A stretch of 41,130 nt of DNA from Syntrophobacteraceae bacterium (GTDB lineage Bacteria > Desulfobacterota > Syntrophobacteria > Syntrophobacterales > Syntrophobacteraceae), in assembly GCA_003566995.1 (NCBI GenBank), contig PXBG01000057.1, positions 1-41,130 of the forward strand, given 5' to 3'. The position numbers were made by a program, and so were the translations under genes. Below, one piece after another: positions 31,896-36,698 of the stretch (its first letter is position 1; the number at the start of each line of letters is the position of its first letter). Below the pieces are notes generated by a model, which worked only from the letters and a program-made list of their open reading frames with translations, did no database searches and was not told the origin of the DNA.

Positions 31896-32033
31896 CTAAT
31901 GGATTCAAGATCAAAATCCAAGACTTTGATGAACATCAGCTTGAAAACCCCACTGCATTTTCGGTCGGCTTGTCTCATCCCGTCTTGAAAAAACCCACCG
32001 ATCACATAAAGCTGTTCCGGAGGAACACTTGGA

Positions 32034-32504
32034 ATGTTTTGGAGAAGATGGTCTCTAGTCTTTTGCTTGATCCTTCTGACCTTCATGCCGGTGCCTTTCA
32101 AAGAAGGTCCATCGGCCGGGGCACAAAACGAGAATGCCGTTGGCTCTCACGAGAGTCAAACCAACGAAGTGGCCCGGCAAACCCTCACCCTGGCTCAATC
32201 CACCATGTGTGAGCGCGTGGAAAACCTGAAACCCCTTCGGCCTGCCACGATTTTTTCCGCTTCTGTGGGCCAGGTGTCCGCATTCACGGCTTTCGACCCG
32301 GTGCCCGAACCCACGATGATCCACCACCGCTGGTACCATCGGGACGAACTCAGCACCCAAACCCGGCTTCGCCTCTATCCACCGCGGTGGTCCACTTACA
32401 GCATGATCCAAATAAGGGAGACGGACAAGGGACCCTGGCGCGTGGAGGTGACCGACGAGAACGGTCAAGTGTTCAAAGTCCTTCGATTCAGCATCACAGA
32501 CTGA
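32034..32504 (+). CDS. Exported DUF2914-like protein
   Basis: Predicted periplasmic or lipid-free exported protein of 156 residues. The N-terminus is a signal peptide (RRWSLVFCLILLTFMPVP). The C-terminal half has the pattern of DUF2914 domains: CERVENLKPLRPATIFSASVGQVSAF, HHRWYHRDELSTQTRLRL, WSTYSMIQIRE, then GPWRVEVTDENGQVFKVLRFSI, a small beta-domain. Its function is unknown. GGAGG lies 10 bases before the ATG. Three bases separate it from the CdaA-YbbR gene, so the two are cotranscribed and may act together at the membrane. Confidence 0.8.
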   Translation: MFWRRWSLVFCLILLTFMPVPFKEGPSAGAQNENAVGSHESQTNEVARQTLTLAQSTMCERVENLKPLRPATIFSASVGQVSAFTAFDPVPEPTMIHHRWYHRDELSTQTRLRLYPPRWSTYSMIQIRETDKGPWRVEVTDENGQVFKVLRFSITD

Positions 32505-32507
32505 TCC

Positions 32508-33944
32508 ATGAGCAATCTTCTCGAGTTTCTCACCACAGTCCGCTGGCAAGACGTCGTTGACATCCTCATCAACAGTTACATCCTTTTCCGCCTTTACGTT
32601 CTCTTCCAGGGCACCAATGCATTCCGTGTTCTTGTGGGAATCGCTTCTCTCTGGATTCTCCAGGAACTGGCCGCCTCCCTGGGACTCATCCTCACCAGCT
32701 GGGCCGTGCGCGGCATCACTGCAGCTGCGGCGATCATCATCATTGTGGTGTTTCGAAACGAAATCCGAAGCGCTCTTCAGGCCCGCAATCTTCGCACTTT
32801 TCTGTGGGGATCTCCCCATCCCCAGGAGGTTTCATCAATGGAACTCATTGCTGAAACCGCTTTTCAAATGGGGAAAAAACGCATCGGAGCCCTGATCGTT
32901 TTTCCCGGCAAGGACGATCTTTCCGAGATCATCCATGGTGGCATTCCCTGGAACGGAACCATCTCCCGTGAAATGCTCACCAGCATTTTCTGGCCCAAAA
33001 ACCCAGTCCATGACGGCGCCATCATCATTTCGGAAGACAAAGTGGCAGAAGTGGGGGCACTTCTTCCCCTCTCCCAGAGACAGGACTTGCCCACCTTTTA
33101 TGGCACTCGCCACAGAGCCGCGGCGGGACTTGCGGAAAGATCCGACGCCCTGGTGGTGGTGGTTTCGGAAGAGCGCGGCCGGGTGACCGTTGCCAAGGAC
33201 CACTGGATCAAGCCCATCGCCCAGCCTGAAGAACTTTGCCAACTTTTGAGACAACACTTCAACCTCTCCGATGGCCCCTCGGAAAAACAGAAGCATCGGC
33301 AAAAACTGAAGCTCTCCCTGGCCGCAGCCCTTTCTCTGATCATTATAACGGGGGTATGGTTCGGCTTCACCCGCAGCCAGCACACCATCATTGCCCTCAA
33401 CGTGCCCCTGGAATTCGTGAACCGGCCTCCGGGTTACGAAATTCTGGACACCTCTGCCGATGAAGTGCGCGTGCAGCTTTATGGCTCCAGCGCTCTCATA
33501 AGATCCCTGCGTCCGGGCCAGGTTCAGGTGCGCATTGACCTGGGAAAAGCCACTGAAGGGAGAAACACGTTCCGCATAACCCAGGACAACATCACCATGC
33601 CTCCCGGCGTGTCCCTCAACAGAGTGGAGCCTTCTGTGGTGGAAGTGACAATGGATGTTCCCGTAACCCGGGAAATCCCCGTGCAGGTGGATTGGGTGGG
33701 AAAACTTCCGGAAAACCTCATCATGGTGGACACACGGATCAGTCCCCCCACGGTTCAGGTCATCGGTGGGAGGAAGATTTTGGAGAGAGTGGACACAATT
33801 TACACAGTGCCCGTTCGCTTGAACACGCTCACCCGTTCGGGCTCCCTCACGGCCTCCCTGGACCTGGACCCTCCCTCCCTTAGGCTGGCACCCGGCTCAC
33901 CGGAAAGGGTCACAGTCCACTACACACTCGATGCGAGAAACTGA
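32508..33944 (+). CDS. cdaA: Diadenylate cyclase CdaA fused to a YbbR-domain (CdaR-like) region
   Basis: Makes cyclic di-AMP from two ATP. Residues 1-95 hold about three membrane helices as in CdaA. The DAC domain (about 105-235) has both catalytic motifs: DGA at 169-171 (NPVHDGAIII) and RHR at 201-203 (GTRHRAAAG). A further membrane helix at about 268-287 is followed by YbbR repeats to residue 478. In Firmicutes CdaA and its regulator CdaR (YbbR) are separate adjacent genes; here both are one chain of 478 residues. glmM, often next to them, is absent. It converges on the gene ending at 33954 with nine bases between. The start is supported by operon spacing; the Shine-Dalgarno is weak. Confidence 0.92.
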   Translation: MSNLLEFLTTVRWQDVVDILINSYILFRLYVLFQGTNAFRVLVGIASLWILQELAASLGLILTSWAVRGITAAAAIIIIVVFRNEIRSALQARNLRTFLWGSPHPQEVSSMELIAETAFQMGKKRIGALIVFPGKDDLSEIIHGGIPWNGTISREMLTSIFWPKNPVHDGAIIISEDKVAEVGALLPLSQRQDLPTFYGTRHRAAAGLAERSDALVVVVSEERGRVTVAKDHWIKPIAQPEELCQLLRQHFNLSDGPSEKQKHRQKLKLSLAAALSLIIITGVWFGFTRSQHTIIALNVPLEFVNRPPGYEILDTSADEVRVQLYGSSALIRSLRPGQVQVRIDLGKATEGRNTFRITQDNITMPPGVSLNRVEPSVVEVTMDVPVTREIPVQVDWVGKLPENLIMVDTRISPPTVQVIGGRKILERVDTIYTVPVRLNTLTRSGSLTASLDLDPPSLRLAPGSPERVTVHYTLDARN

Positions 33945-33953
33945 AGAAGCCGT

Positions 33954-35309
33954 TCAACTTTGGCAGCTCTTGGATGTGCTGCCGTTTTTCAGGGAGAGCA
34001 TGATCCGGTTGGCCCGCTCTTCGATTTCCGGAATGATTTCCGCCAGAGCTTTGAGGGCTGTCAAAATTCTTTTGCTCTGATATTTGTGGGGAATTTTCAG
34101 GTCCGGATGGTTCAGCAACTGAAGGATGTCCTCCAGCACGGTGAGCTCATCCACATTGAAGTCCACATAGGCTATCCTGGACCAGAGTGTCCTCAGGTCT
34201 TCGGGAAGGTGCACGATCTGGTCTGCCATGGCCTTGTCCGAACCCAGCCAGATCCAGCGTTCGAGCTTTTCGAGAAGATCGGAAACTTCTCCCTGACTCT
34301 CTTTCCATGTGTCAGATTCCACGAGAAGCTTTTGCCATTTGGGTCTGATTCTATTTTCCAGCCAGTTGCTGACCATTTCCGGCAACAGGGGGAGCTCGGC
34401 CAACTCCTGTTGTTCCGCCAGCAGTTTTCGCCCCAGATCCGCGGAAGGCAATGAACCGTTGCTGCTGGCCAAGCCGGACTGTATGAGGTCGTTGAGCCGC
34501 TCCAGTATGGCCTTTTTGCTGGCAATGTGTGGAAAAGCCCGCTCCAGCTCCGCTTCCCATTGCTCACGGAGGTAGCCGATTTCCACGCTGATGGCGGAAA
34601 AGATGAAACCCAGTTTGATGAGCGTGTTTCGCAGATCATGAGCGAGGACATTGCAGCTCTGCAGCCTCTGCCGGGCCAGAGCCTTCTGCTCTTCCGCCAG
34701 AGTTTCACGAATGTGAAGGGAGATGAGTTCCGTGCCCAGGGTTCTCGAGAGTTTCTTGATGATTTTGGTGGAAGGGTCACCCCGCTGAATGGTGTTGGGC
34801 CTGAAGTGGATCTTGACCACTGCCACCACCACATACTCGCAGTCCCCCCAGATGGGATTTCCCTGGAAATCAAGAGGGTAGTTCAGTGCCTCGAAATCAT
34901 CCTTGTAGAGGTCGGACTTTTTGGCCAGCACCGGCTCCATGTGGTGGAAATCCTCCACCCTGCCATGGAGTTGCTTGGTCACACTTCTATAGTCTTCATA
35001 GGGGTCGTCCGCAGTCCAGCTCTTTTGCCTTTCCACACACCAAGCCATGGCCTCGAGGGCGCGACCGGGCAGGTCGCAGTAATCCTCCCAGGATTTACCC
35101 GGCATGTTGTAGCCCGAGTCTTCCCGAAGCCCCCACTGAATCTCACCCGTTTCTTCTCTGCGAATGCCGGACGTGACCCGAATCACATGGAGCCGGGGCA
35201 TGGGGCCGACCAAATACACAGTGCCTTTGGTGGCATTGGGCAAGCAAAAAAGGATGGTTTCAATCATATCCTTGCAAGTTTTCTCAAGGATATCATTGTC
35301 AATGATCAT
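33954..35309 (-). CDS. Protein with histidine-kinase-like H-box but no ATPase domain
   Basis: Function unknown, 451 residues. The N-terminal 200 residues look like a GAF/PAS-type mixed alpha/beta sensor region (TVYLVGPMPRLHVIRVTSGI; CEYVVVAVVKIHF). A segment at about 205-245 resembles the dimerisation/phosphoacceptor helix of histidine kinases (SCNVLAHDLRNTLIKLGFIF, His near 224). The rest is helical. No N, G1 or G2 boxes of an HATPase domain occur, so it cannot be a complete kinase. It might be a phosphotransfer protein, a kinase partner or a degenerate relic. The start at 35309 has AAGGGG seven bases upstream; the frame opens at GTG 35357. It follows the AdoMet synthetase gene by 177 bases. 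Confidence 0.65.
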   Translation of the reverse strand: MIIDNDILEKTCKDMIETILFCLPNATKGTVYLVGPMPRLHVIRVTSGIRREETGEIQWGLREDSGYNMPGKSWEDYCDLPGRALEAMAWCVERQKSWTADDPYEDYRSVTKQLHGRVEDFHHMEPVLAKKSDLYKDDFEALNYPLDFQGNPIWGDCEYVVVAVVKIHFRPNTIQRGDPSTKIIKKLSRTLGTELISLHIRETLAEEQKALARQRLQSCNVLAHDLRNTLIKLGFIFSAISVEIGYLREQWEAELERAFPHIASKKAILERLNDLIQSGLASSNGSLPSADLGRKLLAEQQELAELPLLPEMVSNWLENRIRPKWQKLLVESDTWKESQGEVSDLLEKLERWIWLGSDKAMADQIVHLPEDLRTLWSRIAYVDFNVDELTVLEDILQLLNHPDLKIPHKYQSKRILTALKALAEIIPEIEERANRIMLSLKNGSTSKSCQS

Positions 35310-35486
35310 CGATATGCCCCTTATGATTCCATTTTCCCTGAGGAGTGTGTGTCCCACAGAGGCTTGTATCTTGAAATGGTCCCCCGGTCAATACCTCATG
35401 TCAACCTCGTGACTCTTATAGAACTCCCAGCGAGGACTCCTCGCGGAGATTCCTTGAACAGCAACCCACAAAGGCCACTCCCCCCG

Positions 35487-36698
35487 TCAGCAGATGGGCC
35501 ATTGGCCCTGCGCAAGTGCCGAGCACAATCCGCTGAGGTTCACCAGTTCCTCTTCCACCACCTCTTCGATGGAAGAGAGAACATCCACCAGAGCCACACC
35601 ATCCTCCAGAACAACCTGGACACTGACCATGGCAGGCTCATTGACGGGATCTCCAATGCGGCTCACAAGAAAAACATTTGCCTGAGTGAGTCCGCCCACC
35701 CTTTCATAGATTTCTTTGGCCAGCTTATGAGAAAGGACATTGTAGATTTTGCCCACGTGGCTCACGGGATTCTTACCCGCTGCTGCTTCCGTTCCCAGGG
35801 GACGGGCTATGGAGATGAGCCCGTTCACACGATTCCCGCGACCCACCTGGCCCGAATCGGCATCTTCTGCCGAAGTGCCCAGAAGGCTCAAATAGACGCC
35901 GTCCATTCCCTTTCCCGCCACATCCAGGGCATTGACATTGAGGTGGCTCAGCCGCAAATGGCCGGGCAGAAAAGCGTTCAGCCAGCTGTGAATCTCCCGG
36001 CGCACCAGTTCTTTCTTCTGAAAATACTGCTTCTCCGAACCAATGAAGACAGCCATGAGGGGCATGGCCACCGTGACTTCCACCTCATGCTCCCGGCGAA
36101 TGGCCATGATCTTCACATCTTCCCCCGTTTCGGGAAATTCACTCTTGAACGCGTTGGAATTGAGGTGTCCTTCCAGCTCCAGGACCATGGACTCGGTGGG
36201 AGTGAGAGGATAATAACCCACCGCAGCCGAGGTGTCATTGGCAGACCTGTAAAGGCCGGGTTTATGAAAAATGGCCGACAGCTCCTCGGAGCCCTTTCCC
36301 AGAAGCACTTCACACTTCAGATGCCGGCCTGGATCAACGAAACGCATGTGCTTTTGAAACCAATTGCGTGCCGTCTCCACAGCGATCTCATCCACGGCTA
36401 TGTGCTCGCCACCGGCCAAAAAGGTGGCGCGGTCTCCGATGAAAAGCCTCATGGGACTGATCACCTCACCGCCCCCAAACTCCTTGGAAACGCTCCCTGC
36501 GCTGAGGAGGGCTTTGTCGATGTTGTGATGCAGCACCTCCCCAAAACGTTTCAGGTACTCTCCGCAAAGGGCCACAGATATGGCATCACAAAGAGCGTCA
36601 CAGATGGAATCGGGATGCCCCCTGCCCTTTCTTTCCACTATTTCCAGTGTATGGTCCACCATGGGACTTCCCGCATAAGGTTCAACAGTGACCACCAT
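35487..36698 (-). CDS. mat: Archaeal-type S-adenosylmethionine synthetase
   Basis: Makes S-adenosylmethionine from methionine and ATP. The sequence matches the archaeal MAT family (PF01941) rather than bacterial MetK: ERKGRGHPDSICDALCDAIS near residue 22, GDRATF, a middle NDTSAAVGYYPLTPTE, EDVKIMAIRR, and a C-terminal GRGNRVNGLISIARPLGTEAAAGKNPVSHVGKIYNVLS (in pieces). The length of 403 residues is normal for the family. GGGAGG lies about six bases before the ATG. Such enzymes occur sporadically in bacteria, presumably by transfer. A separate metK may exist elsewhere; this cannot be judged here. Confidence 0.9.
   Translation of the reverse strand: MVVTVEPYAGSPMVDHTLEIVERKGRGHPDSICDALCDAISVALCGEYLKRFGEVLHHNIDKALLSAGSVSKEFGGGEVISPMRLFIGDRATFLAGGEHIAVDEIAVETARNWFQKHMRFVDPGRHLKCEVLLGKGSEELSAIFHKPGLYRSANDTSAAVGYYPLTPTESMVLELEGHLNSNAFKSEFPETGEDVKIMAIRREHEVEVTVAMPLMAVFIGSEKQYFQKKELVRREIHSWLNAFLPGHLRLSHLNVNALDVAGKGMDGVYLSLLGTSAEDADSGQVGRGNRVNGLISIARPLGTEAAAGKNPVSHVGKIYNVLSHKLAKEIYERVGGLTQANVFLVSRIGDPVNEPAMVSVQVVLEDGVALVDVLSSIEEVVEEELVNLSGLCSALAQGQWPIC

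Follow-up and report, generated by a model that had tools for sequence, protein, structure and literature searches.

How might a diadenylate cyclase be informed about the cell envelope when YbbR repeats are part of its own chain, and what is the exported DUF2914 protein encoded directly ahead of it? Both questions are raised by a gene pair in the window, by which we mean the entire stretch of 41,130 nucleotides analysed (G000:C1:1-41130), which belongs to a 3.04-Mb genome of 159 contigs that is ~94% complete. The two genes lie on the + strand. The first (32034..32504) encodes a 156-aa protein that is predicted to be exported, and the second (32508..33944), which begins after a 3-nt gap, encodes a predicted single-chain CdaA-YbbR diadenylate cyclase of 478 aa.

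The sequence-only reading of this locus had placed DAC motifs and YbbR repeats in one polypeptide, and a single 478-aa open reading frame indeed contains both. The DAC catalytic domain (residues 118-231, 32859..33200) matches Pfam family PF02457 with 126.3 bits against a cut-off of 27 (E 6.1e-37), and alignment locates a DGA motif at D169-A171 (33012..33020) and an RHR motif at R201-R203 (33108..33116), both invariant in 61/61 rows of the clade to which the window belongs. Two stretches match the YbbR family PF07949 (E 2.1e-20) and define repeat 1 (33402..33650) and repeat 2 (33675..33920). Among solved structures, the DAC part is best matched by CdaA, and the rest of the chain weakly matches short proteins, including Lmo2119 (5hqh), which we take to be a CdaR-type protein. 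TIGR00159, the NCBIfam CdaA equivalog, scores 173 bits and does not reach its curated cut-off of 188.8, so we name the enzyme CdaA-like and not a CdaA equivalog. It carries the one DAC domain of its genome, in which YbbR is likewise confined to this gene.

Three N-terminal membrane helices are modelled at residues 13-33, 37-57 and 65-81 (32544..32750) with pLDDT of about 60-76, and a 19-residue hydropathy scan of the window cyclase recovers two of the three. The match of this region to CdaA_N (PF19293) is weak, at 20.7 bits below a cut-off of 23.8; an E of 0.01 or better is reached in 29/35 members of alignment A2. A fourth predicted helix (residues 269-287, 33312..33368; hydropathy 2.1) separates the DAC domain from the YbbR repeats. 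Lysine and arginine residues are more numerous before this helix, on the DAC side, than after it, on the YbbR side, in 35/35 proteins of A2, and the asymmetry has the same direction in 31/38 other fused proteins. Under the positive-inside rule this excess supports the prediction that the YbbR repeats lie outside the membrane behind one helix. Because the model of the whole cyclase (pLDDT 81) has a pTM of 0.39, we do not trust its domain arrangement and use its local structure alone.

Could the fusion, or the pairing with the upstream gene, be an assembly or frameshift artefact? A sequencing error near residue 260 was checked specifically and fails as an explanation, since the frame is open in the same-genus genome and in all 35 A2 proteins. 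The identical open frame recurs in many assemblies made independently, among them three single-contig genomes (G005, G015, G037). The same-genus genome, a Syntrophobacteraceae MAG (L032), encodes a protein that is 90% identical to the window cyclase and likewise fused, and dN/dS between the two is 0.048 for DAC and 0.115 for YbbR, low through the fusion join. In the upstream gene, the same comparison gives 0.083 for the DUF2914 domain and 0.69 for the signal and linker (residues 1-50). Low dN/dS in all domains, DUF2914 included, indicates that both genes are kept. The conserved open frame and low dN/dS thus refute an artefact, for which no supporting point was found and which has virtually no chance of being the right explanation.

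The DUF2914-like exported partner proposed three bases upstream is also borne out. Residues 94-154 match PF11141 with 71.7 bits against a cut-off of 23.6, and 30/30 aligned homologues match the family at E 0.01 or better. The N terminus has a hydrophobic core, as in 29/30 DUF2914 proteins (lipobox-like motifs in 2), and hydropathy delimits a putative signal peptide at 32034..32123, with cleavage after AGA placed by eye. AlphaFold2 models the DUF2914 domain (residues 51-156, 32184..32501) as all-beta, with pLDDT of 93-98 per 10-residue block from residue 51. The first Foldseek matches of this model are UNC119, PDE6D and RhoGDI, whereas VIA puts other immunoglobulin-like domains first, including xylosyltransferase 1 (Z 11.8, rmsd 2.2, 103 residues) and PA1606, titled immunoglobulin-like (Z 10.7, rmsd 3.3, 109 residues). 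These searches support a predicted domain alignable to immunoglobulin-like beta sandwiches, a statement about fold class that implies no family; a sequence search among solved structures found no relatives up to E 1. The linked DUF2914 proteins have two common cysteines, of which the window protein has the first (MCE) and an alanine at the second. Some relatives lose the first instead, so the two are not an obligate pair.

The layout of the two genes suggests co-transcription. Promoter and terminator scans of the window stay at chance level, with 1 upstream promoter-like match found against 1.1 expected, and an Rfam scan of the window returned neither a riboswitch nor any other Rfam family. 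A Shine-Dalgarno-like GGAGG precedes the DUF2914 gene at 32019..32023 (+ strand). No strong Shine-Dalgarno match is present at the cyclase start, either in the window or across the loci compared (0/27), and DUF2914 starts, which were set by hand, have one in 2/27 loci. As DUF2914 starts are hardly better than cyclase starts in this respect, translational coupling between the genes is only suggested. Downstream of the cyclase, the - strand encodes a 467-aa protein (33954-35357) without a Pfam match above cut-off; similar-looking ORFs are convergent with the cyclase in L011 and L034 as well. Beyond it, also on the - strand (35487-36698), is a methionine adenosyltransferase of the PF01941/PRK04439 type (NF003363, 585 bits), presumably the archaeal type.

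We then compared coordinates by hand in 59 relative genomes, defining this cyclase form by a match with E below 1e-160. It is present in 41. In 40 of these the cyclase match is immediately preceded on its own strand, at a distance of no more than about 560 nt, by a DUF2914 gene; in the remaining genome (G012) the locus is cut by a contig end. Throughout the 40 genomes, the linked DUF2914 is the only one present, apart from G037, which has two for its two cyclases. A sample of 148 genomes from the phylum contains DUF2914 in 40 and this cyclase form in 13, with DUF2914 upstream in 13/13. The notion that the gene might be unlinked in all relatives checked is thereby dismissed. The median intergenic gap is 6 nt, with 50/57 pairs at ≤30 nt, and some pairs overlap by 4 bases. 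Such near-constant pairing suggests the sensing of envelope state.

DUF2914 could instead be an independent envelope protein that merely shares the transcript, perhaps through a common stress response. Its occurrence in varied settings elsewhere in the phylum, apart from any cyclase, fits this idea, as does family f5, where ten genomes have both DUF2914 and a fused cyclase that are unlinked. The clade-wide linkage, small gaps and 4-base overlaps argue against it, as does the duplication in G037 (L140, L141), where each cyclase retains a DUF2914 gene ahead of it, the second of them short (an ORF of 77 aa only). We consider independence quite unlikely. The evolutionary distances of DUF2914 correlate more strongly with those of YbbR (partial r 0.48) than with those of DAC (0.24), in 97% of taxon resamplings and in 18/20 column-matched draws; as a comparison within the cyclase only, this is weak evidence for an interaction of DUF2914 with YbbR.

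To place these proteins, we built an unrooted tree of 151 DAC domains by a quick method with SH-aLRT supports, in which some branches are long. Its rows are loci similar to the window or hand-picked from searches, so proportions among them are no frequencies, and L131 is represented by only one of its two fused ORFs in tree and tallies alike. All 53 split (two-gene) forms fall on one side of one branch with SH-aLRT 100. The window's clade comprises 61 fused rows (support 100), and DUF2914 is directly upstream in 56 of them, which are all the linked cases of the tree. Two others, L011 and L041, stop at a contig end, and L038, L049 and L066, which form one subclade, are without it; no DUF2914 was found elsewhere in the genomes of these three, so the gene is not indispensable. 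The history of the pairing is most simply read as one gain and one loss. In seven further genomes the fused cyclase is more distant (35-37% identity) and has no adjacent DUF2914. The survey of Desulfobacterota for fused versus split forms, with fusion in the phylum sample taken as an unbroken frame across the DAC and YbbR parts, extends the fusion to many families, and the DUF2914 pairing is narrower than the fusion itself.

Tight linkage, short gaps and a one-to-one copy number would equally fit an assembly or stability factor, which aids folding of the YbbR ectodomain or shields it from periplasmic proteases and carries no signal. In an extract of a study on Chlamydia DacA-YbbR, the action of periplasmic or membrane proteases on YbbR is put forward as a possible off-switch for c-di-AMP synthesis (PMC12422730), which also favours this alternative. 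However, fused cyclases of other lineages, and the three clade members above, manage without DUF2914. The domain additionally ends HTH_25 proteins (L204:2693-3565 and L215:3285-4244), in what we take to be a RodZ-type layout, and there resembles a sensing or scaffolding module. A role in assembly or stability alone is, in our estimation, unlikely.

We favour, with moderate confidence, a receptor-like diadenylate cyclase in which DUF2914 serves as a periplasmic partner that tunes c-di-AMP synthesis. Here the three N-terminal helices would anchor a cytoplasmic DAC domain that makes c-di-AMP from ATP, and the fourth helix would cross outward and place the pair of YbbR repeats in the periplasm. 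The DUF2914 protein, translated just ahead of the cyclase from a shared message, would be exported, fold as an immunoglobulin-like sandwich and bind the YbbR ectodomain. Binding would then alter cyclase activity in step with envelope conditions (turgor or wall), and the likely output would be potassium and osmotic balance. Fusion would turn a CdaR-type regulator into a fixed part of the enzyme. We infer the catalytic activity, the contact between DUF2914 and YbbR, the direction of the effect and its stimulus, and the earlier description of DUF2914 as a periplasmic input module may hold in the same conditional sense.

The clearest hint of wall sensing by the outer part comes from cousins with tails. 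Among 38 other fused cyclases, three carry a C-terminal LysM (L149:3956-5608, L134:5606-7237) or OmpA (L165:3639-5366) domain, and LysM and OmpA domains bind peptidoglycan. DUF2914 may supply outside the membrane what these tails give other single-chain cyclases. As a tentative generalization, which may well prove too broad, single-chain DAC-YbbR proteins of Desulfobacterota could be transmembrane receptor cyclases with exchangeable periplasmic envelope-sensing modules (a DUF2914 subunit, or LysM or OmpA tails), with a dedicated two-protein periplasmic sensor, rather than GlmM, gating c-di-AMP synthesis.

A separate clade of 16 fused DAC-YbbR proteins (L136, L153, L156-L169) has the third residue of RHR altered to H, T, A, S or M. 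This change is found in 16/16 proteins there, in 0/21 other fused rows outside the window's clade and in 0/61 within it. DGA is retained in all 16, and some of their genomes have a normal split copy; these are possibly altered or inactive cyclases. Two of the RHR-altered cyclases have a CorA-type transporter gene after them (L157:5504-6565 and L165:2581-3642), and an MscS-type channel gene lies beside that of L161.

As judged from their genomes, c-di-AMP is in use in the window's family (f1). The c-di-AMP riboswitch RF00379 occurs in 12/40 relatives, all members of f1, and 10 of these 12 genomes match the window's protein only once. By coordinates, 7/13 riboswitches stand directly before a Kup gene; Pfam identifies K_trans at 4 of the Kup cases and an amino-acid permease behind 2 other riboswitches. 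Neither the riboswitch nor Kup was found in the window's own genome or its one congener examined. The own genome encodes a PgpH-type phosphodiesterase domain (PF07698) and gives seven TrkA_C matches.

The sequence-only reading had also remarked on the missing partner glmM. It is absent from the locus and sits on another contig of the genome (G000:C100), but this is a feature of fused forms generally and nothing special to the window. A glmM gene is found in the locus in 49/53 split rows and in 0/98 fused rows, with 3 kb of flank on both sides available for only 50/99 fused ORFs. Among glmM loci from fused-cyclase genomes, 12/14 read ftsH-folP-glmM without an intervening cdaA-ybbR; neither folP nor ftsH was found beside glmM in the own genome or in G005. 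In several genomes a split copy accompanies the fused one (for example, G068, G105 and G195). At L174 and L180, which come from genomes with a fused cyclase, the cluster reads ftsH-folP-cdaA-glmM and no ybbR was detected.

We also asked whether residues of the CdaA-GlmM interface could mark a loss of GlmM control. Arg126 of Bacillus subtilis CdaA contacts GlmM, according to an extract of PMC8573169. Its equivalent in the window cyclase is Lys124, and the position is Lys or Arg in 52/61 clade rows and 35/53 split rows, so the residue is no mark of the fused form. The GlmM positions equivalent to D151, E154 and D195 read R/D/E in 14/14 proteins from fused-only genomes, 36/39 from split loci and 7/7 from genomes with both forms. 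Residues on neither side separate the groups, and we rejected this marker; a switch in GlmM binding at fusion is unsupported.

In titles and abstract beginnings of the openly licensed literature, we found no paper on the fused form or on DUF2914 function, and almost nothing on c-di-AMP in this phylum. The fusion may already be described in print, for example in the survey of DAC architectures by Galperin (2023), 'All DACs in a row'. Where extracts of five papers mention CdaR or YbbR, it is a separate gene or protein (PMC8573169, PMC12974146, PMC8316131, PMC9259658, PMC12422730), and the extract on c-di-AMP in Porphyromonas gingivalis states that the input signal of YbbR (CdaR) is unknown (PMC9259658). 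With its single conserved exported partner, and with cousins that carry wall-binding tails, the fused cyclase offers a small system for testing what reaches c-di-AMP synthesis from outside, as well as a first functional lead for DUF2914. The initial reading holds in outline. To it the analysis adds that DUF2914 is linked to the cyclase across the clade, that the fused form is set apart from the split form with its glmM, that some cousins have tails of a wall-binding kind and that c-di-AMP riboswitches precede potassium transporter genes in the family.

Single-chain DAC-YbbR proteins found elsewhere in the phylum, such as those of G129, G054 and G126, share the one-ORF core of the window cyclase but have no DUF2914 neighbour. 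The split ftsH-folP-cdaA-ybbR-glmM cluster of other Desulfobacterota has the same domain order, but in separate adjacent genes and with glmM. The spirochaetes Leptospira (PMC12974146) and Borrelia (PMC8316131) resemble the window in that glmM does not follow cdaA, as extracts on them state, but there cdaA and cdaR (YbbR) are two genes. With the CdaA-CdaR(YbbR)-GlmM system of Bacillota (B. subtilis CdaA, Staphylococcus aureus DacA/YbbR), the window pair shares a DAC domain that is predicted to be membrane-anchored, the DGA and RHR motifs and outer YbbR repeats. Unlike that system, it combines cyclase and two YbbR repeats in one polypeptide, is unlinked to glmM and has an exported DUF2914 gene ahead of it.
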